Source: Alphaproteobacteria bacterium
GTDB taxonomy: Bacteria > Pseudomonadota > Alphaproteobacteria > Micavibrionales > Micavibrionaceae
Assembly: GCA_020442425.1 (NCBI GenBank)
Contig: JAGRKB010000009.1
Location: forward strand, 1 to 34,876
DNA: 34,876 nucleotides
Reading direction: 5' to 3'
The position numbers were made by a program, and so were the translations under genes. Numbering within the stretch: position 1 is the first letter of the stretch; every line of letters starts with the position of its first letter. Of the stretch, positions 14,400 to 34,528 are shown one piece after another. Under the pieces are notes generated by a model. That model was not told the DNA's origin. It did not search any database and saw only the letters and a list, made by a program, of their open reading frames with translations.

Positions 14400-15929
14400 A
14401 TGGTTGCACGAATTAGAACAGTTGCGTTTCGCGGAATAGATGTCCTTGATATTGATGTCGAGGTTCAGATTGCCTCCGGTCTGCCTGCCTTTACGATTGT
14501 GGGTCTTCCCGATAAGGCGGTGGGTGAGAGTAAAGAGCGCGTTCGCGCTGCGCTTCACGCGATGGGATTGGCTCTTCCCGCCAAGCGTATGACAGTGAAT
14601 CTTGCTCCTGCTGATGTGACTAAAGAAGGGTCGCATTACGATTTGCCGATTGCGCTGGGGTTGTTGGTTGCTATGGAGGTTTTGCCTCAAGATGCTGTCG
14701 AGAGCTTTTATGCGCTGGGGGAATTGGGACTTGATGGTTCGTTGCGTGAAGTGACTGGTGTTTTGCCTGCGGCCTTGCAAGCGCAAGCGAATGGTTGCGG
14801 ATTGATTTGCCCTGCTCCTTGTGGCGGGGAAGCCGCATGGGCCGGAGAAGTCGATATTCTTGCTCCACAAAATTTATTGCAGCTCATCAATCATTTTAAA
14901 GGGGTGCAGGTTATTGTTCGTCCTGAAGCGGATATGCGCAGCGCGGCGCTACAAACTGCTCGTGATATGGCAGATGTGAAGGGACAGGAAAGTGCAAAGC
15001 GTGCTTTGGAAATTACGGCTGCCGGAGGTCATAATCTGTTGATGATTGGGCCGCCAGGCTCGGGAAAATCTATGTTGGCCTCCTGTCTACCCGGTATTTT
15101 GCCGGAACTCTCCCCGCGTGAAGCGCTCGAGACTTCGATCATTCATTCTTTGGCGGGGACGTTGCCCGAGGGCGGTCTCATAAGGGCGCGCCCCTATCGT
15201 GATCCGCATCATTCGGCATCCCAGCCTGCGTTGATTGGTGGTGGGCATAAGGCCAAGCCCGGTGAAATTTCTTTGGCACATCACGGTGTGTTGTTTCTTG
15301 ATGAGTTGCCTGAATTTGCAAAAGCAACGCTTGAGTCTTTACGTCAACCGCTCGAGACAGGAGAGGCTCTGGTTGCGCGGGTGAATTATCATGTGACCTA
15401 TCCTGCACGGTTTCAATTGGTAGCGGCTATGAATCCTTGTCGATGTGGGTATTTTGGAACAGTCGGTGAAGAATGCACCAAAGCTCCGCGATGTGCCGAG
15501 GATTATCAGGGGAAGTTATCAGGCCCGCTTCTTGACCGAATTGATTTGCAGGTGGATGTCCCGCCGCTTTCAATTGAAGAGCTGTCGGCGCAGCCTAGGG
15601 GAGAAAGCTCTGCTGCTGTGGCGGCGCGTGTGGCTCAAGCTCGGACGCTTCAAGCTCAACGTTTTTCTGCGCTGGGGGCGGCAAGTTATGTTCGCGTGAA
15701 TGCTGATGCGCAAGGGTCTGTACTTGAAGAGATCGCCCAAATGGAGGAAGGGGCTGAAAAGCTCATGAAATCGGCTGCGGAGAAATTGAAACTTTCAGCG
15801 CGGAGTTGGTATAGGATGCTTCGTGTGGCTCGCACGATTGCCGATCTGGATGGTGCTCCTGATAAAATAGGGTCTGCGCATATTGCGGAGGCTCTCAGTT
15901 ATCGTCGTCTAAGACTGGCAGATTTATAG
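14400..15929 (+). CDS. comM: YifB/ComM family AAA+ ATPase (Mg-chelatase-like)
   Basis: ComM is a hexameric branch-migration helicase that helps integrate single-stranded DNA during natural transformation. The 509-residue product has the N-terminal Lon-like fold (MVARIRTVAFRGIDVLDIDV to about 170). The AAA+ domain carries Walker A GPPGSGKS at about 217-224 and Walker B VLFLDE at about 297-302, and the conserved MNPCRCGYFG zinc-type cysteine motif and C-terminal helical domain are present. It appears complete. Its first 33 codons are repeated upstream as a remnant, with an unknown gene between. It converges with the hydrolase gene, overlapping it by 6 bp. Confidence 0.95.
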   Translation: MVARIRTVAFRGIDVLDIDVEVQIASGLPAFTIVGLPDKAVGESKERVRAALHAMGLALPAKRMTVNLAPADVTKEGSHYDLPIALGLLVAMEVLPQDAVESFYALGELGLDGSLREVTGVLPAALQAQANGCGLICPAPCGGEAAWAGEVDILAPQNLLQLINHFKGVQVIVRPEADMRSAALQTARDMADVKGQESAKRALEITAAGGHNLLMIGPPGSGKSMLASCLPGILPELSPREALETSIIHSLAGTLPEGGLIRARPYRDPHHSASQPALIGGGHKAKPGEISLAHHGVLFLDELPEFAKATLESLRQPLETGEALVARVNYHVTYPARFQLVAAMNPCRCGYFGTVGEECTKAPRCAEDYQGKLSGPLLDRIDLQVDVPPLSIEELSAQPRGESSAAVAARVAQARTLQAQRFSALGAASYVRVNADAQGSVLEEIAQMEEGAEKLMKSAAEKLKLSARSWYRMLRVARTIADLDGAPDKIGSAHIAEALSYRRLRLADL

Positions 15930-16712
15930 CCCGTAAAGTTTTTTAATTTCTGTTTCAAGTAGTTTCAAATCGCTTTCGCGAGAGAGACGATGTTCTCCGT
16001 CCGCGATGTAGTGGATGATGCATTGGTCTTGTTTCAGGCGAGATTTAATCTTCTCGGCGATTTTCCAAGGAACTTCCGTATCGGCTTTGCCGTGAAGCAG
16101 AATGACGGGATTATCAAACGGAATTTGTTCCTCTAAAAGAATATGGTTCTTTCCGTCTTCAAATAGGGCGTAGGTCATAACGTCCGGTTCGTCTGAATAG
16201 GGGCTATCCTCAAGAAGTTTGCCGTCGCGTTTGCAGCGGTCACGTTGCTCGCCGGTCAATTCTTCTTCCCAGACCCATTTGGTGAAATCGGGTGCTGCGG
16301 CAATCCCTAGATAGGCTTTAACGCGTGTGGCACGTTTGGTTGCAACCAGAAGGCCTATCCAGCCTCCCATAGAAGAGCCGATCACGATGAGTGGGCCTTG
16401 CGTGATATTGTCGATCACGAATAGGGCGTCTTGTGTCCATTGCCCGATTGTGCCGTCTTCGAACTCTCCTTCCGAGCTTCCGTGTCCAGAATAATCGAGC
16501 CGCAGCATGGAAAGGTTATTCTTTTTTGCCCAGTCCCATAAAAACAAGGCTTTGGAGCCGCCCATATCTGAACGGTAGCCGGGAAGAAAAACCAGAGTTG
16601 GCTTGGCTTGATCTCCTTGAAAGTAGCGATAGGCTAGCTTTAATCCTTCGGGTGAAGTGATTTTTGAGGGGGAGGGTTCCGATTCTGTGATGGTTTGGGG
16701 CTTTGTCTCCAT
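15924..16712 (-). CDS. Alpha/beta hydrolase
   Basis: This 262-residue serine hydrolase has the nucleophile elbow GSSMGG with Ser114, a likely acid Asp211 in HGKADTEVPW and His241 in GEHRLS. The oxyanion region FLPGYRSDMGGSKA and the RLDYSGHGSS motif resemble the ABHD10/BEM46-type thioesterases common in alphaproteobacteria. A cap segment with WVWEEELTGEQRDRC follows. No signal peptide is seen, so it is probably cytoplasmic. It may cleave acyl thioesters, but the substrate cannot be inferred. Its start is 49 bp from the divergent glycosyltransferase gene. Confidence 0.9.
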   Translation of the reverse strand: METKPQTITESEPSPSKITSPEGLKLAYRYFQGDQAKPTLVFLPGYRSDMGGSKALFLWDWAKKNNLSMLRLDYSGHGSSEGEFEDGTIGQWTQDALFVIDNITQGPLIVIGSSMGGWIGLLVATKRATRVKAYLGIAAAPDFTKWVWEEELTGEQRDRCKRDGKLLEDSPYSDEPDVMTYALFEDGKNHILLEEQIPFDNPVILLHGKADTEVPWKIAEKIKSRLKQDQCIIHYIADGEHRLSRESDLKLLETEIKKLYGL

Positions 16713-20392: not shown

Positions 20393-21025
20393 ATGGTTTT
20401 ACCTTTAAAACGACGTGGTTTGCTGTTTATTCTCTCCTCTCCTTCAGGAGCGGGGAAGACGACTATTACCCGATCTTTGTTAGAAAGAGATCCCCAGCTT
20501 AGTATTTCTGTTTCTGTTACGACCCGTCCCCCGCGTCCCGGAGAGGTTGACGGGAAAGATTATCATTTCGTAACAAAGGAAAAATTTGACCAAATGGTCG
20601 AGAATCATCAGCTTTTGGAGCATGCTAAAGTTTTTAATAACTATTATGGAACGCCTCTTGTGCAAGTCGAAGAGGCATTAGCGAATAGTCAGGATATTAT
20701 CTTTGATATTGATTGGCAGGGGACTCAGCAGCTTAAACAAAAGCTGGTGAATGATTTAGTGACCGTCTTTATTCTTCCTCCGTCTCAAGGAGAGCTGGAG
20801 CGTCGGTTGCGCGCCAGACAACAAGATGAAGAGTCTGTTATCCAGATGCGCATGAAGAAAGCGTCTGATGAAATTTCACACTATTCTGAATATGATTATG
20901 TCATTGTAAATCATGATTTAGAGAAATCCATTTCCCAAGCGCGTTCGATTCTTGAGGCGGAGAGATGCAAGCGTAGGCGATTGACGGAGTTGCCTGATTT
21001 GGTGCGTGCTTTGATACAGGATTAA
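20393..21025 (+). CDS. gmk: Guanylate kinase
   Basis: Gmk phosphorylates GMP to GDP with ATP. The 210-residue length is standard. The P-loop SPSGAGKT is at residues 16-23, the GMP-binding signature is TTRPPRPGEVDGKDYHFV, and IIFDIDWQGTQQL and VFILPPSQGELERRL are family-typical. The lid region with arginines (RRLRARQQDEESVIQMRM) is intact. It stands alone, 182 bp before the secretion locus. That gap holds a TATAGT box near 21053 that could drive the downstream genes. Confidence 0.96.
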   Translation: MVLPLKRRGLLFILSSPSGAGKTTITRSLLERDPQLSISVSVTTRPPRPGEVDGKDYHFVTKEKFDQMVENHQLLEHAKVFNNYYGTPLVQVEEALANSQDIIFDIDWQGTQQLKQKLVNDLVTVFILPPSQGELERRLRARQQDEESVIQMRMKKASDEISHYSEYDYVIVNHDLEKSISQARSILEAERCKRRRLTELPDLVRALIQD

Positions 21026-21207: not shown

Positions 21208-21981
21208 ATGACAAATCAACCTTCCAAGCCTGCGAGTCCTCGTAAAATGCGTCCGTCCTCGGCGCAAGCGGGAGGTGCTAAATCGGCGGCGAATAAACCT
21301 TCCCCAGTCCCCAAGGGTAAGGTTGATAGTAAGGAAGAAGCTCAAAAAGCCGAAGTGGAACTACTGAGAAGTGTTGGCTCTGTTATTATTCGAAACGAGT
21401 TTTATCGGGACGGGTATCGCAGTATTTTGAGAATTGCAGTTATTGAAGCCATTATCATTTTGGCTTTGATTGGCGCTATGTATTTTATTATCGAAGTGCA
21501 TCAGCCTGAAAATCGCTATTTTGCTACTACCGAGGATGGGCGGCTGATTCCGGCTACGGCTCTAAATGATCCCAACTTGAGTGTTCCGGCTTTGATGTCT
21601 TGGAGTGCTCAGGCTGCGACAGAGGTTATGACGTTTGGTTTCAACGATTACAAACGCCGTTTGCAAGATTCGTCCCGTAATTTTACACGGACAGGGTGGG
21701 CTAGCTTTTCAAAAGCATTGGAAAGATCCCGTATCATTGAGATGGTTGAAGATAACCAGCAAGTTGTGACAGCTACGCCGTCCAGCGCTCCGATTCTGAT
21801 TGATGAGGGGGTTAATGCCTATGGGGTTTATCAATGGGAAGTTGATGTTCCTTTGGATGTTACCTATCAGTCCGGATCTGCTGTTCGCTCTGATAAACTT
21901 AATGTGAAACTCATCGTTGTTCGTGTGCCTAAGCTTGAAAGCCCTAACGGGGTTGCTATCGAGCAGTGGTTGGCGCAATAA
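21208..21981 (+). CDS. DotI/IcmL-family type IVB secretion protein (DotJ position)
   Basis: DotI is a bitopic inner-membrane protein of the Dot/Icm secretion complex, structurally similar to VirB8. The 257-residue product has a Pro/Ser/Lys-rich cytoplasmic tail of about 50 residues, a transmembrane helix at about 74-96 and a periplasmic domain of about 155 residues with the family core SWSAQAATEVMTFGFNDYKR. It is the first gene of the locus, where Legionella has the truncated homologue icmM/dotJ, but here the periplasmic domain is complete. It is about half identical to the next gene, 17 bp downstream. It probably forms a hetero-oligomer with that paralogue, as DotI and DotJ do. Confidence 0.88.
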   Translation: MTNQPSKPASPRKMRPSSAQAGGAKSAANKPSPVPKGKVDSKEEAQKAEVELLRSVGSVIIRNEFYRDGYRSILRIAVIEAIIILALIGAMYFIIEVHQPENRYFATTEDGRLIPATALNDPNLSVPALMSWSAQAATEVMTFGFNDYKRRLQDSSRNFTRTGWASFSKALERSRIIEMVEDNQQVVTATPSSAPILIDEGVNAYGVYQWEVDVPLDVTYQSGSAVRSDKLNVKLIVVRVPKLESPNGVAIEQWLAQ

Positions 21982-21998
21982 ATTTTTGAGGAACTTTT

Positions 21999-22688
21999 AT
22001 GGAATCTCCTGCTGACAGCATAAACAAGACGGATCAAGTTTTGCCTGATGCTCAGGAAAAAGAAACTGAAATTCGTCAGCATATTAAGTCCGGTATCGGG
22101 AGAATGCATTTTTATCAGGGTAGTTACAGAACTATTCTGAAAATAGCCGTTGGCGAGGCAATGTTTATCTTGCTGCTGATGGCTGTGATGTTTTTTATCA
22201 TTAATACCCACCGCCCAGAAGATCGTTACTATATCCAGTCTACAGATGGTGAATTGATTGAAATGGAGCCTTTGTATGAGCCTAACTTGAGTGTTAAGGC
22301 TATTACCTCCTGGAGCGCGCAGGCGGCAACAGAAGTTATGACATTTGGCCTCAACGATTATCGGCGTCGTCTTCAAGAGGCATCGAGAAACTTTACTCCA
22401 CTGGGTTGGAAAAGCTTTAATGCCGCTTTGGAGCGTATGAAAGTCCTTGAGAATGTTGAGAAAAATCAGCAAGTTCGCAGTGCTGCACCTGCCGGACCTG
22501 CCATTCTTATCGGGCAAGGATATATCAAAGGGCGTTATGAATGGCTGGTTCAGGTTCCGTTGGTCATAACATATCAGGCGCAGGCGGCTGTCAGCTCTGA
22601 AAGGTTGTGGATTACAATGACGCTGGTTCTGGTTGATCAAGGCGATGGTACAAGTGCTGTCGGTATTGAGAAATGGATTTCGCAGTAG
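21999..22688 (+). CDS. dotI: Type IVB secretion protein DotI/IcmL
   Basis: This second DotI paralogue has 229 residues, close to the Legionella DotI size (about 212). Order: a polar N-terminus, a transmembrane helix at about 47-69 and a periplasmic VirB8-like domain with NLSVKAITSWSAQAATEVMT and LNDYRRRLQEASRNFTPLGW. It has a GAGGAA ribosome site. Compared with its neighbour it lacks the long Lys/Pro-rich tail and differs in the strand region before ITYQAQAAVS. It is followed by a 150-bp palindrome and then dotH, so it may end a first transcription unit. Confidence 0.9.
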   Translation: MESPADSINKTDQVLPDAQEKETEIRQHIKSGIGRMHFYQGSYRTILKIAVGEAMFILLLMAVMFFIINTHRPEDRYYIQSTDGELIEMEPLYEPNLSVKAITSWSAQAATEVMTFGLNDYRRRLQEASRNFTPLGWKSFNAALERMKVLENVEKNQQVRSAAPAGPAILIGQGYIKGRYEWLVQVPLVITYQAQAAVSSERLWITMTLVLVDQGDGTSAVGIEKWISQ

Positions 22689-22717
22689 CTATTTCCAGAG
22701 TTCTGTTTGTATCGGAT

Positions 22718-22867
22718 TATAGTCATTCTTCTTAAGAATAGGGCACATCTGCGAATGAAGCCGTTTTTTCAAAAACCTCCTCAAAGTACTGCTATGTACG
22801 TTGTCGTCGGCTTTTGAAAAAGCCGGTCATTCTCGATCGGCGTCCTATTCTTAATAAAAACGACTAT
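22718..22867. repeat. 150-bp nested palindrome inside the secretion locus
   Basis: The ends are inverted repeats (ATAGTCATTCTTCTTAAGAA against TTCTTAATAAAAACGACTAT, mismatches allowed). Inner arms pair GAATGA..TTTTTTCAAAA with TTTTGAAAAA..GGTCATTC, and the centre is AGTAC-tgcta-TGTAC. The whole segment can form one long hairpin or cruciform. The ATAGTC ends and the CTCCT..GTCGTC flanks of the central hairpin recall the elements at 4501 and 19308. It is noncoding. It may be a mobile palindrome, or a terminator or RNA-stability element between dotI and dotH. Confidence 0.75.
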
Positions 22868-22896
22868 GATTCCTTCTATTTTTGAATTTTTCATGG

Positions 22897-22925
22897 TTGA
22901 GGGGGCTGATTAAACTGGATATTCT
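22897..22925 (+). promoter_or_regulatory. Candidate promoter for dotH-dotG-dotF
   Basis: TTGAGG and TATTCT are separated by 17 bp, about 95 bp before the dotH ATG. The 326-bp gap between dotI and dotH holds this and the palindrome; nothing else was seen in it. Confidence 0.35.
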
Positions 22926-23020
22926 ATTTTACAAATGTATTATGGTGTTCGGCCATATGAGATTCTTCCTCTCTTTTGGTTGTGTAATGACCGTATGGGT
23001 GACCTAATTTCGGGGTGTTT

Positions 23021-24166
23021 ATGGAACATAATTTTGTTTTCTTGAATTCTAATCGCCAAGCTTTTTGTCGAGGTTTTCTGTTGGGTTGCCTTGGTTTTGC
23101 AACTTTTGTCTCTTTTCCCTTTGTATCAGGAGCTCAGGCTCAGGACGCAGGGCTTCAGTTGGATCAGGGTATTCCTCCTTCAATGCTGCAGGCTGCGAAT
23201 CAACCACCAGTTCTGGAAGGTGGTAATGCGGGTGATCCCCCAAGTCTGGCTGAAGTTTTAGGTATGGCGGATGAGTCAGGGGCACAAGACACAGATCTTT
23301 CTGGTGATAGTCTTGGTATGAACGATCTTCCGGTTGAGCCTGTTCGAACTCAAGAAGATGCCGCTCGTGAAGAACGCGGAGAGGCATTTCAGGGCGCAGT
23401 AGACAGTTTGATGCCTTTAAAGCCAGCAGAAATTCGTCGGATGCTTGAGCTTTATGATCAGACATCTCAAGCGGTTGAAACACCAATTTATCCAAATCCC
23501 GAGCCTGAATCTTCTTTCGTTCAAGCTTCTTTGGAGCCTGGGGCAAAGCCCGTAATGATTAAGACCGCTGTTGGTAATGTTACTACAATGAGTATTGTTG
23601 ATGCGACCGGGCAGCCTTGGCCAATTCAGGACATGACTTGGGCCGGAGATTTTCAGGTTGAGCAGCCTGAAGCCGGTACGCACATGGTCCGCATTACTCC
23701 ACAGTCCCATTTCGCTCAGGGAAATATTTCTATGCGGTTGGTTGGGTTAAATCCGCCAGTCATTTTTACCTTGAGAACAGAGCGTAAAACAGTCCATGTC
23801 CGTTTGGATGTTCAAATTCCTGAGGTCGGTCCTCAGGGCGTTCTTCCTCCTGTTGTTACACCTATTTCAATTAAAGCCGGAGACGAGGATCTTGCAAAAG
23901 TATTGATTGGCACTCCTTCTGCTGCCGGTATGACAAAGATGAGTGTTGAGGGTGTTGATGGACGTACTTCAGCGTTCTCGAAAGGTGGGCTGATGTATGT
24001 TCGCACGCCTTATACACTTTTATCTCCGGCTTGGACAAAATCTGTCCAATCTGCTGACGGGATGCATGTTTATGCTTTACAGACAACACCGGTTATCCTT
24101 CTTTCCGATAAGGGAAGAATGGTGCGTGCGTATCTTACTTCTACGGAGCTAGCAAATGGCCAATAA
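23021..24166 (+). CDS. dotH: Type IVB secretion protein DotH/IcmK
   Basis: DotH is a core outer-membrane/periplasmic component of the Dot/Icm machine. From the ATG at 23021 it is 381 residues (Legionella IcmK is about 360). It has a signal peptide ending near AQAQ (residue about 40), a Gln/Asp/Pro-rich linker (to about 130), and a helix with LMPLKPAEIRRMLELYDQTS, a strong IcmK-family signature. The beta-rich C-terminal half follows, containing MSIVDATGQPWPIQDMTW and GNISMRLVGLNPPVIFTL. The latter resembles VirB9/TraN-type beta domains. An in-frame GTG 6 bp upstream is not needed. It overlaps dotG by 11 bp. Confidence 0.93.
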   Translation: MEHNFVFLNSNRQAFCRGFLLGCLGFATFVSFPFVSGAQAQDAGLQLDQGIPPSMLQAANQPPVLEGGNAGDPPSLAEVLGMADESGAQDTDLSGDSLGMNDLPVEPVRTQEDAAREERGEAFQGAVDSLMPLKPAEIRRMLELYDQTSQAVETPIYPNPEPESSFVQASLEPGAKPVMIKTAVGNVTTMSIVDATGQPWPIQDMTWAGDFQVEQPEAGTHMVRITPQSHFAQGNISMRLVGLNPPVIFTLRTERKTVHVRLDVQIPEVGPQGVLPPVVTPISIKAGDEDLAKVLIGTPSAAGMTKMSVEGVDGRTSAFSKGGLMYVRTPYTLLSPAWTKSVQSADGMHVYALQTTPVILLSDKGRMVRAYLTSTELANGQ

Positions 24167-25673
24167 TGATTTAGAAAATGACGATTTCGAGCCTGACTTC
24201 GACCAAGCAGAGGATTTTGGCGAATTTGGTGGTGATGCTCAGAAGCCTACTATAGGAAATGCTCTTTCCGGATCTCCGATGTTAAAAGTTGCAATGATTG
24301 GGGCCGCAATTCTGGTTGTGGTCGTTGCAATCGCTTTGTTCGGTGGTGAAGAAAAAGAATTGCCTGGATCTCGTGTTGATGCCGGTGCTCCTGATTTAAA
24401 GCAAACTCCCGGTAAGGAAGAGTTGACACCAATGATGCGCGGCGCGATGGAAGAGCATAACCAGCAAGTTCTTGAAGAAGCGTTGAAACAAGGGACGAGT
24501 GCTATTCCTACTCCAATCGATCCGCCAAAAGTTTTGTTGGGTGTTCCCGAGGGAGAGGCCGCAACGGAAGATCCTCTCGTTCGTTGGAAAAGGCTTCAAG
24601 AAGAGCGTTTGAGATTGCAGCGTGAGCAAGAGCAGTTCTCTAATCAGGCTCAGACAGATCCGGAGCGTGACACGCGAGTTATGAACTTGCAGCAAGCTAT
24701 GATGAACCAAGTAACGAACATTATGGGTGAGCAAGAGAACGGCGAGATCATGAAGAATATCAAAGTGTATACTGTTGATGTTCGTTCTTCCGGCTCGCAA
24801 GGAGGGGGCTCTTCTCAAGTTTCAGGTTTGATGGGCGGACTTCAGGGGGCTTCAGCAACGGGTGCTGTCGATCCGCAAGGGCAAGCTGTTGCTCTTGATC
24901 CTGCTAAAGTGATCGTTCCTGCTGGTGAAATCGAGTATGCCCAACTTTTGATGGAAGCTAATTCCGATGTGCCTGGCCCTATTGTAGCTATGGTTGTTTC
25001 TGGCCCGTTTAATGGTTCTAAAGTTTTGGGTAGTTTTCAGCGCAAGGAAGAGTATTTGATTTTACAGTTCAATACTCTTGTTAGCAAAGCTGGGCATTCA
25101 ATCCCTATTAATGCCATTGCGGTTGATCCTGATACGACGCTGGGTGCGATGGCGACCGATGTTGATCATAGATATTGGCAGCGTGTTGTTTTGCCAGCTG
25201 CGGTTAGCTTTATAGAAGGTATGGGGAATGCTATTGCCGAGAGCGGTTCTACAACTGTAACTGTTGAGGGTGGCGATTCCACAGTTTCTCAAGAGAATAA
25301 TGATCTTGATACTGAGCAGGAATTGGCAACAGCGGCCTCTGAAGCTGCCGACAAAATCGGAGAGATTCTGGATGAAGAAGCTGATGTTGAAATTCTGGTG
25401 CGCGTGAAAGCCGGAACTCCTATGGGCTTACTTTTCACGAAAGGTGTCACAGATCAGGATGTTGAGTCTGCGGCTCTAGGTCGTGGGGCTGCTGCAAATA
25501 GTAATGCTGCTCAAGCTCAAAATCCGTACGCCGTGAATTCTAATTCTTCTAGCCCTATGGGATTTTTACAAAATTCTATGCAAGGGCAAATGCAATTACA
25601 GCAACAGGGAATTAACTTTCAAGCGGGAGTTCCCGGGGCTCAAGTCTCTTATAGTAACGGACTGTCCCAATAA
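24156..25673 (+). CDS. dotG: Type IVB secretion protein DotG/IcmE, compact form
   Basis: DotG spans from inner membrane to outer membrane and forms the central channel with a VirB10-like C-terminal domain. The 505-residue product has an acidic N-terminus, a transmembrane helix at about 43-63, a Pro/Glu linker, a coiled-coil stretch (about 140-200, LQEERLRLQREQEQFSNQAQ) and the VirB10-type domain (IVPAGEIEYAQLLMEANSDV to MGLLFTKGVTDQDVES). Legionella DotG is about 1050 residues because of a long degenerate pentapeptide-repeat region; this one has none and is close to plasmid R64 TraO in size. A Gln/Asn-rich tail follows the core domain. Confidence 0.93.
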   Translation: MANNDLENDDFEPDFDQAEDFGEFGGDAQKPTIGNALSGSPMLKVAMIGAAILVVVVAIALFGGEEKELPGSRVDAGAPDLKQTPGKEELTPMMRGAMEEHNQQVLEEALKQGTSAIPTPIDPPKVLLGVPEGEAATEDPLVRWKRLQEERLRLQREQEQFSNQAQTDPERDTRVMNLQQAMMNQVTNIMGEQENGEIMKNIKVYTVDVRSSGSQGGGSSQVSGLMGGLQGASATGAVDPQGQAVALDPAKVIVPAGEIEYAQLLMEANSDVPGPIVAMVVSGPFNGSKVLGSFQRKEEYLILQFNTLVSKAGHSIPINAIAVDPDTTLGAMATDVDHRYWQRVVLPAAVSFIEGMGNAIAESGSTTVTVEGGDSTVSQENNDLDTEQELATAASEAADKIGEILDEEADVEILVRVKAGTPMGLLFTKGVTDQDVESAALGRGAAANSNAAQAQNPYAVNSNSSSPMGFLQNSMQGQMQLQQQGINFQAGVPGAQVSYSNGLSQ

Positions 25674-25690
25674 TTTGAGGAGTGACATAT

Positions 25691-26935
25691 ATGTCTGATA
25701 AGAATTTGGAAGATCAATATGAGGATGAATTTTCATCTGATGATGCAGAATATTTTGATGAGGATTTGGGTGATGAATCTTCTTTTGATGGAATAGAGGA
25801 TGAGAATTGGGATGATCTTGAGGATCGAGAATCCTATCGTGATCCAGCTCCTCCTAAGAAGAAAAAAAGCTCTTTTTTGACAATTGTTATTGTTCTTGTT
25901 GTTGTTCTGGGTGGAGGGTTTCTTCTTCTCGGATTGATGGGGGGTGGGGCGCAGGAAGTGCCTGCTTCTGAAGAAGAGGTGGTCACTTCCGGAGTTATTG
26001 ATCAAGCCCCTGTAAATGTTGATTCAAATAATGTTGAAGATTTGCCCGCTCCACAAGAACAGGTTCTAACTGGCGCAGAATCTGGGACACAGGCAGATGC
26101 TACCGTTCAAAATGACCCACAGGATATTTCCCCTCTGGATTTGGGCGGAGATGTTGTTTCGTTGACACCGGAACCTGATGTTTCATCTACACAAGAGCTT
26201 CCGGCTTTACCGGAGCTTACAGAAGGCTTGATGACAGAGCCAGTTGAATTGGTAGCTGATGTTCCTTCTTTGGAGCCTGTTCCTGATACTGCTGAGGTGT
26301 TGTCTCAAAATGCTGGAGAAGTTGTTGTCCCTGATATTTCTCCGGAACCGAGATCTTCGGATTTCCCATCTGTTGATATGATTAAACGTCCGGAAGCTGT
26401 TGCCCAAGTTTCTGAAAGTGACGCTCCTGCTATTCCGGATCTAAATATTCCTGAAGTGACCGATTCTGCTCAAGCTGATGTTCAGCAGGCTCTACAAGAT
26501 AATGCTAGCTTGATGAATGATGAAATGAGAAAAGCAGTCGATCAAATTGCGAATTTGCAAGCCAGCGTTGAGGATTATCAAGAGCAGGAAGCTTCTTTGA
26601 AGCAGAAGATTTTTGAACTCGAGGCCAAGTTGGCGCGTGCGCAAGAGCGTGATGTGGCTACTACGCGTTCTGTTCAAGTTTCCCGATCCTCTAGAATAGA
26701 TGAACCTCGTGCCAATATATCTACGGTTTCTAGTGTTTCACGTCCTGTTAAGACTGTTTCTTGGGTCTTGAAGGGGGCTCAGTCCGGAAAAGCTTTGATT
26801 TCTAAAGAAGGTCAACGTGATATCATGTCTGTTTCTGTTGGTGAAACGGTTGCCGGACTGGGAACAATTCTCTCTATTGAGCAAGGCGCTCAGGGATGGG
26901 TTGTTCAGGGTACTAAAGGCAGTGTTCGGGAATAA
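25691..26935 (+). CDS. dotF: Type IVB secretion protein DotF/IcmG-like
   Basis: This inner-membrane component of the core complex starts at the ATG at 25691 with GAGGAG 9 bp upstream, giving 414 residues (Legionella DotF is about 270). The first 50 residues are about half Asp/Glu. A Lys run and a transmembrane helix at about 61-83 follow, then 170 residues of Pro/Glu/Val/Asp-rich, probably disordered linker. Next is a coiled coil (MNDEMRKAVDQIANLQASVE onward, about 275-320) and a C-terminal strand domain with SVSVGETVAGLGTILSIEQG, which resembles the secretin-type HR fold of PilP/IcmG. Position after dotG supports the call; overall similarity is low outside the end. Confidence 0.8.
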   Translation: MSDKNLEDQYEDEFSSDDAEYFDEDLGDESSFDGIEDENWDDLEDRESYRDPAPPKKKKSSFLTIVIVLVVVLGGGFLLLGLMGGGAQEVPASEEEVVTSGVIDQAPVNVDSNNVEDLPAPQEQVLTGAESGTQADATVQNDPQDISPLDLGGDVVSLTPEPDVSSTQELPALPELTEGLMTEPVELVADVPSLEPVPDTAEVLSQNAGEVVVPDISPEPRSSDFPSVDMIKRPEAVAQVSESDAPAIPDLNIPEVTDSAQADVQQALQDNASLMNDEMRKAVDQIANLQASVEDYQEQEASLKQKIFELEAKLARAQERDVATTRSVQVSRSSRIDEPRANISTVSSVSRPVKTVSWVLKGAQSGKALISKEGQRDIMSVSVGETVAGLGTILSIEQGAQGWVVQGTKGSVRE

Positions 26936-26963
26936 GCATTTATTGTCTAGGATTGATTCATTA

Positions 26964-26990
26964 AATCCCTGATATTATTCAGGGATTTTC
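26964..26990 (+). terminator. Intrinsic terminator after dotF
   Basis: The stem AATCCCTGA / TCAGGGATT is followed by TTCTCT, 29 bp after the dotF stop. It ends the dotH-G-F unit. Confidence 0.7.
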
Positions 26991-27032
26991 TCTATTTATG
27001 ACATTCTTAACTTTGTAATAAGTTATTTTAGG

Positions 27033-27150
27033 TATAGTGTTCTATGGGGAGTAACATAGTTAATTCTGCATTTTCATGGATTGGTGGGCAGAATCTTGTG
27101 TTTTTGTCAGTTTTATGGTTCAATAATAGGTATAGAACCGTATAAACGGT
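27033..27150 (+). promoter_or_regulatory. Structured leader and promoter region of dotE
   Basis: The 220-bp gap before dotE has a TATAGT box at 27033-27038 and three small inverted repeats: CTATG/CATAG (27042-27059), ATTCTGC/GCAGAAT (27063-27094) and ACCGT/ACGGT (27137-27150). The last ends about 12 bp before the start codon, near the GGGGTG ribosome site. Confidence 0.4.
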
Positions 27151-27162
27151 CGGGGTGTGTAT

Positions 27163-28434
27163 ATGAAAAAAATATTCTCTAGATTTAACAGCATGTTAAA
27201 CCGTAACACTGTCAGGTTCTTAGCCCTGTTGGTGGTTTTTTCTTCTGTTTCGATGTTTTCTACGCAGGCTCAAGCTCAGGGGCTTGGAAATGCTGTGAGC
27301 AATGCCTTAAGTGGTGTTGGAAATGCTGTGAGTAATGCGGCGAGTGGTATTGGAAATGCTGTGAGTGGTATTGGAAGTGCTGTGAGTAATGCTGTCTCTG
27401 GGGCTTTGAGTGCCCTGACATCTGCTGCTGCCGCTGCACTTTCAGGAGTTTTATCCGCTGTTAGCTCTATGGTCTCGACTGGCGTGCAAGCTTTTTTCGC
27501 GAACGTCAATACTTTTATTACCACTTCTATTAGTAATCTCTTCTCATGGCTTGGTGGGGCGCTGGGTTGTGGTGGTATGGTCAATGCCGGAGGAGGAACT
27601 GTCGGGGATGTTATCTGTAATGTTATTATTGCATCAGATAATTTGCCAGGCTTCGTTTCTGCTGTTGCCTATATGATGGGTATGATTATGGCAGTTAGCG
27701 CTCTTATCAAATTGAAAGATCATGTTGAAAGCCCTACTCAACATCCGATTTCCGCGTCTCTTAAACGCTTTGTAGCCGGTGGTGCTTTATTTATGCTTCC
27801 GATGGTTACTGAAGCCACAGAGACTCTTATTGCAGGTACAGGTATTAGTGGTGGTATGGGGACGGGATTGAACGGGAAAGCCTCGGGATTTGGTTTGGAT
27901 GCTATGATGGTTGCTTTGATGGTTGATATTTTCAAACCGGTGGGCGCATTATTGGGTGGTTTTGGCTATCTGGCTGGTATGGTTCTGACCGTTATCGGTA
28001 TTAGCCGCTTGCTCAAGACTGCTCAGGATGGGCCTTCAGGTCCAACAGGCTTGGGAACTATCATGACGTTTGTTTTGGCAGGTGTCTTGTTTACCATGGA
28101 TGAGTTGATGACTGCATTTACCGGATCTTTGTTTAATATGAATGTCATCGAAACTTCGGCAGTGTTGTCTGTGCCGATTGACGGCGGCGTTGTCGATGAT
28201 CACGTTCTTGCTGTAATCAGTTCTATTCTGCTGTTTATGATGCTTGTCGGGTGGATTAGCTTTATACGCGGGTTCTTTATTTTGCGCGATGTGGCTGAAG
28301 GAAAAGGTCAAGCATCATTGATGGCGGCAATTACTCATATCATGGGTGGAGCGATTGCTGTGAACTTGGGTCCATTTATGAATGCCGTACAAAGTACACT
28401 TGGTTTGACAAGTGTGGGGGTTATCTTTAGTTAG
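27163..28434 (+). CDS. dotE: DotE/IcmC-like membrane protein with three DotP-like units
   Basis: This inner-membrane protein of the type IVB system has 423 residues against about 190 in Legionella IcmC. It has a signal peptide to about residue 37, then a Gly/Ala/Ser/Asn repeat helix (about 40-105, units such as GVGNAVSNAAS). Three related two-helix units follow. Unit 1, at about 161-224, has LPGFVSAVAYMMGMI and VAGGALFMLP and is closest to DotP; unit 2, at about 260-322, has GYLAGMVLTVIGISRLL and FVLAGVLFTMDEL; unit 3, at about 349-411, has LVGWISFIRGFFILRD and MGGAIAVNLGPFMNAV. Identity rests on unit 1 similarity and on its place between dotF and dotP. Confidence 0.8.
   Translation: MKKIFSRFNSMLNRNTVRFLALLVVFSSVSMFSTQAQAQGLGNAVSNALSGVGNAVSNAASGIGNAVSGIGSAVSNAVSGALSALTSAAAAALSGVLSAVSSMVSTGVQAFFANVNTFITTSISNLFSWLGGALGCGGMVNAGGGTVGDVICNVIIASDNLPGFVSAVAYMMGMIMAVSALIKLKDHVESPTQHPISASLKRFVAGGALFMLPMVTEATETLIAGTGISGGMGTGLNGKASGFGLDAMMVALMVDIFKPVGALLGGFGYLAGMVLTVIGISRLLKTAQDGPSGPTGLGTIMTFVLAGVLFTMDELMTAFTGSLFNMNVIETSAVLSVPIDGGVVDDHVLAVISSILLFMMLVGWISFIRGFFILRDVAEGKGQASLMAAITHIMGGAIAVNLGPFMNAVQSTLGLTSVGVIFS
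27281..27465 (+). repeat. In-frame direct repeats in dotE (GNAVS units)
   Basis: Repeated DNA of the type GGAAATGCTGTGAG(C/T), three clear copies and several degenerate ones, encodes a run of Gly-x-Gly-Asn-Ala-Val-Ser-Asn-Ala units just after the signal peptide of dotE. Confidence 0.85.
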
Positions 28435-28488
28435 ATAATATTATATAATAAACTTTGATTATTTACTGAAGCATTAGAGGAGGAAACT

Positions 28489-28890
28489 ATGCTGAAACAA
28501 AAACTGAATAGACTTAGTGCAATGATTGGTGCCGCTTTTGTAATGGGAACCTTTATGAGTTCTGATGCGAGTGCAGCTCCAGCAAAGACTTTTAACGATG
28601 TTGCAAATAACATTATTGGCGGTATTTCAAGCTTACCGGGCTTTCTATCTGCTGTTTCCTATATGATGGGGATGTTGTTTGCTGTTCTTGGTATTTTGAA
28701 GATCAAAGATCACGTTGAAAACCCAACTCAGATTCACCTGAAAGACGGTGCTATCCGTTTGGCTGTTGGTGGCGGTCTGTTTATGATCCCAATTATTACC
28801 GAGTCCATGCAGACCTTGGTTGGTACGGGTACAATGACTAAAGCTGCTGAAGTTAGTAAAATCGGTACTGCTACTAATTTGGCGAAGTAA
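28489..28890 (+). CDS. dotP: DotP/IcmD-family protein, copy 1
   Basis: This small inner-membrane component of the Dot/Icm system has 133 residues, as in Legionella IcmD. It has a consensus ribosome site (GAGGAGG), a signal-like hydrophobic N-terminus ending near SAAP (residues 1-31), a first membrane helix SLPGFLSAVSYMMGMLFAVL, a conserved loop KIKDHVENPTQIHLKDG and a second helix LAVGGGLFMIPIITESMQTL. It is followed by its own terminator. It is the homologue of unit 1 of the preceding DotE. Confidence 0.9.
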   Translation: MLKQKLNRLSAMIGAAFVMGTFMSSDASAAPAKTFNDVANNIIGGISSLPGFLSAVSYMMGMLFAVLGILKIKDHVENPTQIHLKDGAIRLAVGGGLFMIPIITESMQTLVGTGTMTKAAEVSKIGTATNLAK

Positions 28891-28917
28891 TTTTACTTTC
28901 TATCATTATGAAATTTT

Positions 28918-28947
28918 AAACAGACCCTTTTGGGGTCTGTTTTTTTG
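28918..28947 (+). terminator. Intrinsic terminator after dotP copy 1
   Basis: The stem AAACAGACCC / GGGTCTGTTT is followed by a T-tract. The same hairpin is found after copy 2. Confidence 0.88.
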
Positions 28948-29045
28948 GGAAGTGATGGAAGTGCCTTGATTTTATTTCTGTCTTTTGACTTAGAAGTATT
29001 GTAGAATGGTATATGGTCATAATTGAAGCATTAGAGGAGGAAACT

Positions 29046-29447
29046 ATGCTGAAACAAAAACTGAATAGACTTAGTGCAATGATTGGTGCCGCTTTTGTAA
29101 TGGGAACTCTTATATGTTCTGATGCAAATGCTGCCCCAACGAAGACTTTTAACAACGTTGCTGATAATCTAATTAACGGTATTTCAAGCTTACCGGGTTT
29201 TCTATCGGCTGTTTCCTATATGATGGGGATGTTGTTTGCTGTTCTTGGTATTTTGAAGATCAAAGATCACGTTGAAAACCCAACTCAGATTCACCTGAAA
29301 GACGGTGCTATCCGCTTGGCTGTTGGAGGCGGTCTGTTTATGATCCCGATTATTACCGAGTCCATGCAGACCTTGGTTGGTGCGGGTACAATGACTAAAG
29401 CTGCTGAAGTTAGTAAAATCGGTACTGCTACTAATTTGGCGAAGTAA
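29046..29447 (+). CDS. dotP: DotP/IcmD-family protein, copy 2
   Basis: This 133-residue paralogue aligns without gaps to copy 1 and differs at ten positions, nine of them between residues 22 and 44, i.e. around the signal peptide end and the start of the mature chain. Both membrane helices and the KIKDHVENPTQ loop are identical. The ATG at 29046 has the same GAGGAGG site as copy 1; an in-frame ATG at 29013 lies upstream of that site and is not the start. It has its own terminator. The two copies may assemble together or be expressed differently. Confidence 0.9.
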   Translation: MLKQKLNRLSAMIGAAFVMGTLICSDANAAPTKTFNNVADNLINGISSLPGFLSAVSYMMGMLFAVLGILKIKDHVENPTQIHLKDGAIRLAVGGGLFMIPIITESMQTLVGAGTMTKAAEVSKIGTATNLAK

Positions 29448-29474
29448 TTTTACTTTCTATCATTATGAAATTTC

Positions 29475-29502
29475 AAACAGACCCTTTTGGGGTCTGTTTT
29501 TT
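29475..29502 (+). terminator. Intrinsic terminator after dotP copy 2
   Basis: It has the same stem as after copy 1 (AAACAGACCC / GGGTCTGTTT with a T-tract). dotN then needs read-through or its own promoter. Confidence 0.88.
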
Positions 29503-29584
29503 AGTTTTGTGAAATTCTTTTGTTTTATTGGTTGATCGGTTATGATAAGCCACTCAATTGATGCAATTCTGAAAGTGGGTGCTT

Positions 29585-30286
29585 ATGAATAACTTGCCTT
29601 TGGCTTTGGGCATTTCTCGCCCAGATGGAAAAACCAAGCGGATTAAATTACCGCAGGGAAGTCCTAAGATTATTACTCCGGAAATTAAAAAGGCTGTCTT
29701 TGAGAGGGACGGGTATTCTTGCCAGTGTTGTGGATTTCAGGCTCAAAAGTATCAGGAAGTTCATTTTCTGGATCAAAATCCCCAGAATGTCACAATGGAC
29801 AATATGGCAACAGTTTGTATCTTTTGCCATCAGTGCTTTAATTTGGATTTAGTTTGTGAGATGCGTTCCGGCGTATTGATCTGGCTTCCGGAGATTTCAC
29901 AAGTTGATTTGCACCATATCATGCGTTCTGTCTATGTTGCCCGTATTTCACAGGGCCCAATGGCAGAAGCTGCTCGTGCTACGCTGGATGCGCTTATGGC
30001 TCGTCGTGAAGAAGCTAGAAATCGTATAGATACGGATGATCCTTTTGTTCTGGCCACTGTTCTTAAAGACTTTCTGACATCACGCTATTATGCCGATAGG
30101 GAAAATAGGCTGGACGGTGTTCGATTGATGCCACTTGATCGTCGTCTTATTCGCGAAGCTGATCTTGAGTTTAACCAGTTTCCTCAAATCCTAGCTTATT
30201 GGCGCTCCAAAGAGGGGCCATTCGGGGGGCGGGCACCTACATTGTGGCTTAATCTTTATAAGGATGCTCTTCAAAAGGCAAGTTAG
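29585..30286 (+). CDS. dotN: Type IVB secretion protein DotN/IcmJ
   Basis: DotN is a zinc-binding cytoplasmic protein that belongs to the DotL-DotM coupling complex in Legionella and helps recruit substrates. From the ATG at 29585 it is 233 residues (Legionella about 208); a GTG 6 bp earlier is possible. The zinc site is visible as C46-x-x-C49 (with C48 between) in GYSCQCCGF and C78-x-x-C81 with C84 in VCIFCHQC, in an HNH-like arrangement; HNH catalytic residues are not evident. The C-terminal half is helical and ends in FGGRAPTLWLNLYKDAL, a family-type ending. The gap to dotO is 81 bp. Confidence 0.9.
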   Translation: MNNLPLALGISRPDGKTKRIKLPQGSPKIITPEIKKAVFERDGYSCQCCGFQAQKYQEVHFLDQNPQNVTMDNMATVCIFCHQCFNLDLVCEMRSGVLIWLPEISQVDLHHIMRSVYVARISQGPMAEAARATLDALMARREEARNRIDTDDPFVLATVLKDFLTSRYYADRENRLDGVRLMPLDRRLIREADLEFNQFPQILAYWRSKEGPFGGRAPTLWLNLYKDALQKAS

Positions 30287-30367
30287 TCGCTCTCTAACTC
30301 GAATTCTGTATTTTCAATGTGTGTTTTTCTGGTTAAACTGACCAGGATCTAACTCTGTGATTCTCTG

Positions 30368-33367
30368 ATGAAATTTATCGAAAAAGTCCTTGCCCCGTTC
30401 CAAATCGCTCTTCGACAATCTATCGAGAGTTTTATTCGTATTGAGACGGCTGAAAACGAGTATACGCTGGCTTCAAGCGATGGATCGCTTGTCAGTTATT
30501 TCAAAGTGGATGGGTCACGTCAGATCATCGGGGAGGAAGAGTATAATTTTCTTGTTGATGCTGCGACTGTTAAGCTGGGTTCCAAGTTCGACCGACAAGG
30601 TCATGCAATGCAAATTTACTTTACGCGTGATCCTAACCGTGTTCGTTCGCATTTGTCAGGACAGATGGAGGCCTCTAATGTTACGGCGGACAACATCGGC
30701 TTGGAAGTCCATGACTTGCTGGATGAACGCTTAAAGAACTTATCCAGCATTTTGAGTTTTGAAGAATGCTATTTTGTTCTTTGGACACGTGCTTCCGTTA
30801 TGAGTAAAAGCGAGAATCAGAGGGCTCGTGAAGATAAGCAAGCACAGATCAAGAACTGGGTGAATGCTCCTTATGGGCAGAATCCTTTGGCAGCAATTGA
30901 TTCTCTGCGCACGCGCCATAAAAGTTATGTGACCTCCATTGAGCAGGCTTTGAATGAATTGGGTATTCGTGCCGAGTTGATGGAAGTCCATGATGCTTTA
31001 GGCGCTATACGGAATAATATGTTTCCGAGTAAGGCTCATAATGAATGGAGAGCCTGCTTGCCGGGAGATCCTATTCCTCCGCGGGCACCGACATCGCGTA
31101 TTGATCTTTCCGATATTATATGGCCGCCACTCCGAACGCAGTTATCTGTCGGAGATGCGCGTTTGACCGGAGGGCCTGTCGTTCAAATTGATGATTTGAA
31201 TTGGGCTGGAGCGGATATGACTTTGGGGCCAATGGAGGCAACACCATTTCCGGCTCTTTTGAACAGGCTTTATGATGCAAAAGTTCCATTCCGTATCTCT
31301 TTTCTGATTGAGGGAGGTGGGGCTGAGTCTTCCCAGTTTCGCTCATTTGTTGCCACTCTTATGAGTGTTACCAACTCTTTAAATAAACAGATCAAATATT
31401 CTCTGGAAGGATTGAATGTTATGGCTCGTAGCGAGCCAGTGGTTAAGTTGCGTGTTTCTTTTGCGACATGGGCTCCCAAATCTTCCCCTAACCTTATTCT
31501 GGATCGATTGTCTATTCTGATGCAATCCATTGAGAGTTGGGGATATGCTCAGGTGAGTGATGTGTCCGGTGACCCTCTTGATTGCATTATGTCTTCGGCC
31601 ATGGGAATTCATTGTGCCGGAACGGCTCCTGCTGCTATTGCTCCGATGCGCGAAGTCATGAAATTGGTTCCGTGGCAGAGGCCATCTTCTCCTTTTTCCC
31701 ATGGTGCGATTATGCTTCGTACCCCTGACGGAAAATCATGGCCCTATCAGACCGGAACCAACCTAACAACAACTTGGTTTGACTTGATCTTTGCACAGCC
31801 GGGTGCTGGTAAATCTGTTTTGATGAACACTCTCAACCTTGGGACCATTCTGTCTCCGGGGCTTAGTAAGTTGCCGTTCGTTGCCGTTATCGATATTGGC
31901 CCCTCTTCTTCGGGGCTTGTCTCTCTGGTTAAAGAATCTTTGCCTATTATGCGCCAAAATGAAGCGGCTTACTATCGTCTTCAGATGTCCAGACAATTTG
32001 CGATTAATCCTTTTGATACGCAGCTTGGGTGCCGTCAGCCATTGATGGATGAACGCAGTTATCTGGTTGAATTGCTTGTTCTTCTCTCGACGCCTCCTGG
32101 ACATGACAAGCCATATGACGGTATTCAGCAGCTGGCAGGGCTAGTCGTTGATGAAATGTTCCGTTGGCGGGATGATTCTTCGGCTAATGCTGAGCCTCGT
32201 CCGTTCTTGCCGCGTCTTGATGCTGATATTGATGAACTTATTCAAAAGCACAATATTCATTTGCCCACGGATCCTTATTGGTGGGATGTAGTTGATCGTT
32301 TGTTTGAGCTGGGCTTGGTTGAAGAGGCTATGGTCGCCCAGCGCTATGCAGTTCCAACTCTGGGGGATGCTATTACAGCTTCCCGTCGTCCCCAAATTCG
32401 AACTTTGTTGGAAGAAACATCTGTTGGTTTTAGTACAGAATCGGTTATTAATGCTTTTGAACGTATGATTACTTCAGCTATACGCGAATATCCTATTTTG
32501 TCTTCTGTTACCCAGTTTGAAATTTCGGGAGCGCGTGTTTGCTCTCTTGATTTGATGGATGTGTCTCCACAAGGTGATGATACGGCGGATCGCCAAACCT
32601 CTATCATGTATATGTTGGCGCGTCATGCTCTGGTTAGGAACTGGTGGGTTGGCCCTGAATCTTTACAGTTTATTCCAGAGAAATACAGATATTATCATGA
32701 GTCCAAGTTGCAGGATTTGGCCGAGACACCAAAGCGACTTTGTTATGACGAGTTTCATAGAACCAGTTCTTCATCGTCTGTACGTTCGCAGGTAATTCGG
32801 GACGTACGGGAAGGTCGTAAACGCGGCGTTCAAATTGTTTTGGCTTCCCAGCTTTTGGACGATTTTGATGATGATATGGTTGATTTGGCCACAGGTGTCT
32901 GGGTTCTGGGTACTGCTGTTTCTGATAAGGCTGTTGATAATGTTCGTGATCGTTTCGGCTTATCGTCCACAGCTCGGAATATCATTCGCTATAAGCTGAC
33001 GGGTCCTCGAGCTGGTGGAGCTCCGGCTTTGCTAATTTTGGGTACGAATGAAGGGCGCTATGAACAGCATCTTATCAATACTTTGGGGCCAATTGAGTTG
33101 TGGGCTTTTGCGACGTCCGTAGAAGATGTCTTAGTTCGTAATCAGCTTTACTCTAAATATGGGGCTGGGCGTGCACGCCAAATTTTGGCGGCTGCCTTTC
33201 CAAGCGGAAGTGCTCGTAACGAGATCAAACGCCGTATTTTGATGAAATCCAAAGAAGGAGGCGATTCGCGGTCTGCAGCTTTGACGGCTGTGATTGATGA
33301 AATTGTTGAAGAGTTATCTGCTTCCCAGACAAAGAAAAATTTACCCGATGAAAATGAGGGAGAATAG
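30368..33367 (+). CDS. dotO: Type IVB secretion ATPase DotO/IcmB (VirB4-like)
   Basis: DotO is the large cytoplasmic ATPase at the base of the Dot/Icm apparatus. Its 999 residues match the Legionella length (about 1009). The N-terminal half (to about 470) is the membrane-complex-binding domain. The RecA-like half has Walker A QPGAGKSVLMNTLNLG at about 475-490 and Walker B LCYDEFHRTS at about 790, with VLASQLLDDFDDDMVDLATG following, typical of VirB4/TraU proteins. The C-terminus is a polar helical tail (KSKEGGDSRSAALTAVIDEI). The next gene starts 2 bp after its stop, so both are probably cotranslated. Confidence 0.95.
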   Translation: MKFIEKVLAPFQIALRQSIESFIRIETAENEYTLASSDGSLVSYFKVDGSRQIIGEEEYNFLVDAATVKLGSKFDRQGHAMQIYFTRDPNRVRSHLSGQMEASNVTADNIGLEVHDLLDERLKNLSSILSFEECYFVLWTRASVMSKSENQRAREDKQAQIKNWVNAPYGQNPLAAIDSLRTRHKSYVTSIEQALNELGIRAELMEVHDALGAIRNNMFPSKAHNEWRACLPGDPIPPRAPTSRIDLSDIIWPPLRTQLSVGDARLTGGPVVQIDDLNWAGADMTLGPMEATPFPALLNRLYDAKVPFRISFLIEGGGAESSQFRSFVATLMSVTNSLNKQIKYSLEGLNVMARSEPVVKLRVSFATWAPKSSPNLILDRLSILMQSIESWGYAQVSDVSGDPLDCIMSSAMGIHCAGTAPAAIAPMREVMKLVPWQRPSSPFSHGAIMLRTPDGKSWPYQTGTNLTTTWFDLIFAQPGAGKSVLMNTLNLGTILSPGLSKLPFVAVIDIGPSSSGLVSLVKESLPIMRQNEAAYYRLQMSRQFAINPFDTQLGCRQPLMDERSYLVELLVLLSTPPGHDKPYDGIQQLAGLVVDEMFRWRDDSSANAEPRPFLPRLDADIDELIQKHNIHLPTDPYWWDVVDRLFELGLVEEAMVAQRYAVPTLGDAITASRRPQIRTLLEETSVGFSTESVINAFERMITSAIREYPILSSVTQFEISGARVCSLDLMDVSPQGDDTADRQTSIMYMLARHALVRNWWVGPESLQFIPEKYRYYHESKLQDLAETPKRLCYDEFHRTSSSSSVRSQVIRDVREGRKRGVQIVLASQLLDDFDDDMVDLATGVWVLGTAVSDKAVDNVRDRFGLSSTARNIIRYKLTGPRAGGAPALLILGTNEGRYEQHLINTLGPIELWAFATSVEDVLVRNQLYSKYGAGRARQILAAAFPSGSARNEIKRRILMKSKEGGDSRSAALTAVIDEIVEELSASQTKKNLPDENEGE

Positions 33368-33369
33368 TT

Positions 33370-33873
33370 ATGGCTGTCAAAAATAGTTTTGATCAGTCTG
33401 CTAAGCCTGCACCAAAGAAGAAAAAAGATGTCAGAATATTCTGGATTGCAGGTATTGGGATCGCCTTATTGGGGCTCCTTGTTTTTTTATACAAACCTCA
33501 AGCTACAATTCACTATGGCGTTTGTAAGGTTTATCTTGAACTGAATGAGCCGTATCCTGAGAAAATAAAATATCTCTCTTTGGAAGATTTTGGGGATTCT
33601 ATCAGAATAATTTATCGTAAGATTGATCCGTTTGGAACGGTTTCTGTTAATATTGCTTCTTGTACCTATTTAATTGAGGATGGAGTGGTTACTCCATATC
33701 TTACAGCTGTTGATATAAACGGTAAAAACAAGTCCTACGAGATGGAAAAACAAGAGCGTATTGAGGCTTTTAACAAGTCTGTTCCGACAATTGAGGCTTA
33801 TCCTCCGGATTTAACCATCCCGTATTTCCCCTTGGAAGATATTTCCGAATACAGAAACCTTTATAATGAGTAA
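33370..33873 (+). CDS. Unknown bitopic membrane protein at the end of the secretion locus
   Basis: This 167-residue protein has a Lys-rich cytoplasmic tail (KPAPKKKKDVR), one transmembrane helix (about 25-45, IFWIAGIGIALLGLLVFLY) and a 120-residue periplasmic domain with alternating strands. The domain has two cysteines (HYGVCKVYLELNEPYPEKIK and NIASCTYLI) that could form a disulfide. No family is recognised; it is not clearly any named Dot/Icm protein. Tight spacing to dotO (2 bp) and a matching DNA style argue for a role in the secretion complex, for example a VirB8- or IcmT-like assembly factor, but this is inference. A separate infC promoter lies just downstream. Confidence 0.7.
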   Translation: MAVKNSFDQSAKPAPKKKKDVRIFWIAGIGIALLGLLVFLYKPQATIHYGVCKVYLELNEPYPEKIKYLSLEDFGDSIRIIYRKIDPFGTVSVNIASCTYLIEDGVVTPYLTAVDINGKNKSYEMEKQERIEAFNKSVPTIEAYPPDLTIPYFPLEDISEYRNLYNE

Positions 33874-33973: not shown

Positions 33974-34528
33974 ATCAAGAAGCCATATTCTGGTCCAAAT
34001 CGTGGAAATCGTGATGCTGATGGACCGCGTGTGAATGAAGATATCCGTTTAGAGCGTTTGCGTCTTGTTGACGAGAATGGAGAAATGATCGGCGTTGTTA
34101 CTGCGCGCGAGGCTATGCGTCGCGCGGAGGAAGCTGGTCTTGATCTTGTAGAAATTTCCCCTAATGCCGATCCGCCTGTTTGCAAAATCCTCGATTACGG
34201 TAAATATAAATTTGAGCAGCAGAAAAAGGCTTCAGAAGCTCGTAAAAAACAAAAAACCGTTGATGTGAAGGAAATTCAGCTTCGTCCTATGATTGGCGAT
34301 CATGATTATGATGTGAAGTTGAAAAATGCTCGTCGCTTTTTGGAAGACGGGGACAAGGTTAAGGTTGTTTTGCGCTATAGGGGCCGTGAATTGTCCCATA
34401 CAGAGATAGGAATGGAGCTTTTGACCCGTATGATTGGAGATTTGGGCGAGACTGCTAAAGTTGATTTTGCACCAAAAATGGAAGGTCGTCAGGTTATGAT
34501 GGTACTGTCTCCTGGAAACGCGAAGTAG
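33974..34528 (+). CDS. infC: Translation initiation factor IF-3, proposed AUC start
   Basis: IF-3 binds the 30S subunit, keeps it apart from 50S and checks the start codon. The N-terminal domain has [20 protein letters not shown] and [20 protein letters not shown], followed by the Lys-rich linker and the C-terminal domain with [19 protein letters not shown] and [11 protein letters not shown]. The first standard start in frame is GTG at 34031 (in PRVNEDIR), which would drop the usual basic leader. The frame is open back to a TAG at 33962, and AGGAG sits 6 bp before ATC at 33974, giving 184 residues with the normal N-terminus. A rare AUU/AUC/AUA start is the known basis of infC autoregulation in other bacteria. 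rpmI and rplT do not follow. Confidence 0.9.

Follow-up and report, generated by a model that had tools for sequence, protein, structure and literature searches.

Among gammaproteobacteria, intracellular lineages are known to have type IVB secretion systems (PMC11338181). Searches of plasmid records showed that IncI plasmids and plasmids of alphaproteobacteria carry them as well. Micavibrio aeruginosavorus ARL-13 is an epibiotic predator, which attaches to bacterial prey and feeds on it, and its genome paper (2011) reported finding no evidence of type III or type IV secretion systems (PMC3189940). The means by which Micavibrio and other epibiotic predators drain prey from the outside still awaits an explanation. 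Within the scope of our literature search, which covered open literature and left most subscription papers and automated surveys aside, we found no report of Dot/Icm or type IVB systems in Micavibrio. Here we analyzed a stretch of 34,876 nucleotides (hereafter, the window; contig JAGRKB010000009.1 of assembly GCA_020442425.1) from an alphaproteobacterium of the Micavibrionaceae, in which positions 21208-33873 hold a block of dot/icm genes. The block appears to belong to a resident type IVB system, spread over at least four loci of which it is the largest, that is kept across the Micavibrio order and that probably delivers proteins into a touching cell, which would be prey in predatory members.

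Eleven open reading frames, all rightward (plus strand), fill the block between gmk (guanylate kinase; 20393-21025, plus strand; Pfam PF00625, 186 bits) and infC (34031-34528, plus strand; PF00707 and PF05198). Their order, DotI, DotI, DotH, DotG, DotF, IcmC, IcmD, IcmD, DotN, DotO and orf167, matches the icm block of Legionella, as a first-pass annotation had read it; the open reading frames and profiles agree. The first gene (21208-21981), however, had been named icmM. It encodes a full-length DotI/IcmL (PF11393, 197 bits; NF038072, 190 bits at a cut-off of 175), and the IcmM/DotJ identity was rejected on profile scores (27 bits for the DotJ model). A second DotI/IcmL (21999-22688; PF11393, 160 bits) is 50% identical to the first. 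The outer-membrane core protein DotH/IcmK (23015-24166, start codon uncertain) matched PF12293 (232 bits) and L. pneumophila DotH (6x62; E = 1e-37). DotG/IcmE (24156-25673) is a short form of 505 amino acids with a VirB10-like C-terminal domain, which scored 185 bits with NF033900 versus 76 bits with TraO and matched residues 749-1046 of L. pneumophila DotG (E = 1e-25). DotN/IcmJ, the zinc-binding subunit of the coupling complex (29579-30286), possesses two CxxC motifs and matched L. pneumophila DotN (5x1h; E = 1.5e-18) and NF038221 (98 bits, just under the cut-off of 100).

The profile checks that had been proposed for the block thus supported both DotI, DotH, DotG, DotN and, weakly, DotF/IcmG (25682-26935; NF038218, E = 2.9e-8, and position), but not IcmC, IcmD and DotO. 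DotO/IcmB (30368-33367), a VirB4-type ATPase, matched no close profile model and no solved structure; its homologues (found on 3768 plasmids), its place in a phylogenetic tree and a Walker A motif (AQPGAGKS) nevertheless identify it. The IcmC/DotE-like membrane protein (27157-28434) and the IcmD/DotP-like proteins (28489-28890 and 29013-29447) were assigned by position, because no family matched them above cut-off. IcmC and IcmD have a motif in common (48% identity), and the first IcmD matched DUF6750 weakly. The second IcmD, whose start is probably at 29046, is a tandem duplicate 92.5% identical to the first. Since related loci often have only one DotI and one IcmD, both duplications look local. 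Comparison with IncI profiles gave no match for IcmC with TraQ, IcmD with TraR or orf167 with TraV, and no support for DotF with TraP. The putative membrane-anchored protein orf167 (33370-33873) follows DotO in most loci read and has homologues in 24 other loci, including that of ARL-13; its predicted structure (pLDDT 68, a moderate model) gave no significant fold match.

DotA, DotB, DotC, DotD, DotL and DotM, which had been noted as absent from the window and expected elsewhere, were all located in the remainder of the genome (2.22 Mb in 117 contigs, 99.9% complete), so the refuting condition set with the first-pass annotation did not apply and its interpretation is supported. One contig (C60) carries DotD-DotC-DotB-IcmT, with a DsbC-like protein, orf336 and a VirB1/TrbN-like lytic transglycosylase upstream; a second (C85) carries DotM-orf187-DotL-orf250; and a third (C6) carries three tandem DotA genes with a mutual identity of 37-39%. 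The matches to solved Legionella proteins were strong for DotL (484 bits across residues 3-668), DotB (E = 1e-113) and DotM (E = 6e-29), and IcmT scored 77.8 bits with its profile (cut-off 40). The genome therefore encodes the core proteins DotC, DotD, DotG and DotH, the ATPases DotB and DotO, the coupling protein DotL, DotA and IcmT, by which type IVB systems are broadly recognized, together with both DotM and DotN, the coupling-complex subunits of the Legionella type. In such a machine, DotC, DotD, DotH and DotG would form the core channel, DotB and DotO would serve as the motor and DotL-DotM-DotN as the substrate receptor, while several tandem DotA would share the inner membrane with DotI, DotF, IcmC, IcmD and IcmT. 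Proteins would most likely pass through the envelope and enter an adjoining cell, prey in predatory members. What the sequences show is the parts, their conservation and their inheritance; the assembly, substrates and target of the system are inferred.

Two genes beside DotL, orf250 (after DotL; L018:9165-9917) and orf187 (between DotM and DotL; L018:12179-12742), are kept in ARL-13 and in two other genomes (G140 and G121), and orf250 looks pseudopilin-like by eye. A further contig (C67; L019:9450-9926, 14553-16676) has a short piece of a TraG/TraD C-terminus and an open reading frame with weak likeness to relaxases, apparently a separate, decayed mobile element; the TraG-like match was rejected as a part of the system, being short and unlinked to the dot genes.

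The system is conserved across the order. DotH was found in 132 of 142 genomes, with one copy each (93 of the 98 good genomes), and DotA in 135 of 142; when the two lists were compared, every one of the 142 had DotH or DotA. Among 30 sampled genomes of the order, 26 had DotC and all had DotL. Outside the order, at most 237 alphaproteobacteria were sampled, and 9 of them had DotH. Two nearly complete genomes (G064 and G106) retained DotA and DotL and had no DotH or DotC match, possibly owing to partial loss or an assembly gap. In two others, the DotH reading frame contains one internal TAG (G112:C191:3481-4191 and G038:C38:24623-25375).

The close relatives of the source genome are metagenome-assembled genomes named Micavibrio or Alphaproteobacteria, and together with the DotO tree they uphold the alphaproteobacterial, Micavibrio-lineage origin of the window. 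In the DotO tree, the order formed one group, in which families f1 and f6 grouped by lineage, and its nearest neighbors were two further systems of alphaproteobacteria, both taken from whole genomes. A phylogeny of DotO against Legionella, Coxiella and alphaproteobacterial homologues had been suggested; its alphaproteobacterial part was realized, in a tree built without Legionella, in which some long branches (IncI, Vibrio and Cupriavidus) leave the deeper order unsure. The taxonomy given with L004 and L006 assigns Micavibrio metagenome-assembled genomes to the Pseudobdellovibrionaceae (Bdellovibrionota); DotO groups them with alphaproteobacteria. Because the DotO phylogeny follows the lineages, the sequences indicate that the system is old and vertically inherited, with no recent arrival. 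Further, the G+C content at third codon positions was 0.30-0.44 in the block and 0.35-0.47 in its neighbors, a fit that agrees with the long residence already suspected from codon use. The gmk-infC site is common to close relatives; elsewhere, by our reading of the sequences, the block lies near flgK/flgL-like flagellar genes.

DotA was multiplied within the order. In a DotA tree of 17 genomes of the order, all 11 of family f1 had three DotA genes in a row (one had four); genomes of f2, f5 and f7 had one, and one f6 genome had three through a separate amplification. This suggests, with moderate tree support, an early duplication in f1 followed by independent later ones. Since three copies arose repeatedly, different DotA proteins may act together.

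We found the same parts in a cultured predator. The genome that we take to be that of ARL-13 (G047; a single contig of 2,481,983 bases) carries one block of DotI, DotH, DotG, DotF, IcmC, IcmD, DotN, DotO and orf167, DotD-C-B-IcmT about 8 kb from that block, DotM-orf187-DotL-orf250 and three DotA. A protein near its DotI matched IncI TraW weakly (E = 1.8e-5). Another genome (G046; 2,458,610 bases) is presumably that of strain EPB. Judged by its genes, the presumed ARL-13 genome thus appears to have a near-complete type IVB part set, unlike the statement of its genome paper. An order-wide system in a cultured predator is a direct candidate for the prey-draining mechanism.

A machine of this class may instead move DNA, as an MPF_I (IncI)-type conjugation apparatus that became fixed in the chromosome. 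DotL resembles TrbC, and the transglycosylase and DsbC-like protein adjoin DotD. Further, in one genome (G140:C1; L068:962-11568) IncI-type thin-pilus genes (TcpQ/PilL-like, PilN, PilO, PilP, PilQ, PilR and prepilin) immediately follow icmT, and the dotI-dotO block comes next. A PilN-like secretin scored at least 178 bits in this and five other genomes (G008, G073, G118, G119 and G121), went undetected in most sampled genomes, and was represented in the source genome and ARL-13 by distant secretins only; the thin pilus was therefore rejected as a universal part of the system. We searched for a MOBP relaxase with PF03432 as the only relaxase family in 28 good genomes, one of them from outside the order. 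It was missing from 16, including G046 and G047, and was scattered and often multi-copy in the other 12; the source genome stayed below the cut-off, and no relaxase was seen in the dot loci read. Conjugation is therefore unlikely, as far as gene content tells, as a function shared across the order. Vertical inheritance in the DotO tree, the presence of DotN and the Dot/Icm-like character of DotB (421 versus 241 bits) also argue against conjugation, which we regard as an unlikely explanation. DotN is not decisive for the Dot/Icm type, because plasmids carry it too. As to whether the machinery is Dot/Icm or conjugation-only IncI, the proteins match Legionella structures, with the reservation that DotL also scores well with TrbC.

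The target may be eukaryotic, such as protists, and not bacterial, since the closest studied systems (those of Legionella, Coxiella and Piscirickettsia) act on eukaryotic cells (PMC11338181). ARL-13, however, has the same parts and feeds on bacteria (PMC3189940). Further, IcmW (NF038222), which may have diverged strongly, was undetected in 14 genomes of the order: its model gave no match within E = 1 in the source genome or ARL-13 and chance-level matches in four others, and the same model did find IcmW in another alphaproteobacterium (G358). The system is therefore not simply a Legionella effector system, and "complete", as the block had been called, is too strong for what is a near-complete part set. 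We consider an injection system against eukaryotes improbable.

Some features are reminiscent of a machine whose action would stop short of a second cell, either an exporter or a builder of surface structures (for adhesion or an envelope function, for example): the pseudopilin-like orf250 after DotL, and a TcpQ-domain protein that follows IcmT in ARL-13. However, DotL, DotM and DotN are all retained, and in Legionella the full coupling complex of these three recruits the proteins to be translocated; this explanation seems to us highly improbable.

Delivery of proteins by a resident type IVB system into a touching cell, prey in predatory members, is therefore the explanation that we favor, with fair but not full confidence. 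Several points weigh against it: no substrate was identified, IcmW escaped detection, the best NCBIfam match of DotL is IncI TrbC, large plasmids, in part typed as conjugative, carry DotN as well, and the source organism is known only from a fragmented assembly. More tentatively, epibiotic predators among the alphaproteobacteria might have in this system their main apparatus for predation, a Dot/Icm machine redirected at bacteria with a mixed channel of several different DotA proteins. If so, the range of Dot/Icm machines would extend from eukaryotic hosts to bacterial prey. The system also bears on the divergence of conjugation and effector systems within the type IVB class.

The plasmid locus of the intracellular fish pathogen Piscirickettsia salmonis has the same parts (DotD-C-B-IcmT-DotL-DotM-DotN-DotO-DotA), all in one locus; in contrast to the source genome, it possesses IcmW and, in the locus read, a single DotA. 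Alphaproteobacterial plasmids (the Methylorubrum extorquens AM1 megaplasmid and those of Bosea, Rhizobium and Roseomonas) encode DotO with 37-43% identity, and several of the same records carry DotN. These systems differ in being plasmid-borne, in that DotN of Bosea and AM1 lies far from DotO, and in branching apart from the order when DotO sequences are placed in a tree. The L. pneumophila Dot/Icm system has the same gene order (M/I-L-K-E-G-C-D-J-B) and homologues of DotA, B, C, D, F (weak), G, H, I, L, M, N, O and IcmT, and its DotL and DotB structures are matched strongly by the proteins of the source genome. Unlike Legionella, which has DotI and a short DotJ, the window has two full-length DotI; its DotG has no long N-terminal part, its genome has several tandem DotA, and IcmW was undetected in the 14 genomes of the order searched for it. 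The IncI1 transfer system (ColIb-P9/R64 Tra/Trb, MPF_I) has the same core order TraM-N-O-P-Q-R-U, with TrbA/TrbC and TraH-I-J; DotL is close to TrbC, and some families of the order have thin-pilus genes adjoining the system. In contrast to IncI1, the Micavibrio-order system has no conserved MOBP relaxase; it has DotN, a DotB on the Dot/Icm side and, in the source genome, three DotA, and it is chromosomal and vertically inherited.
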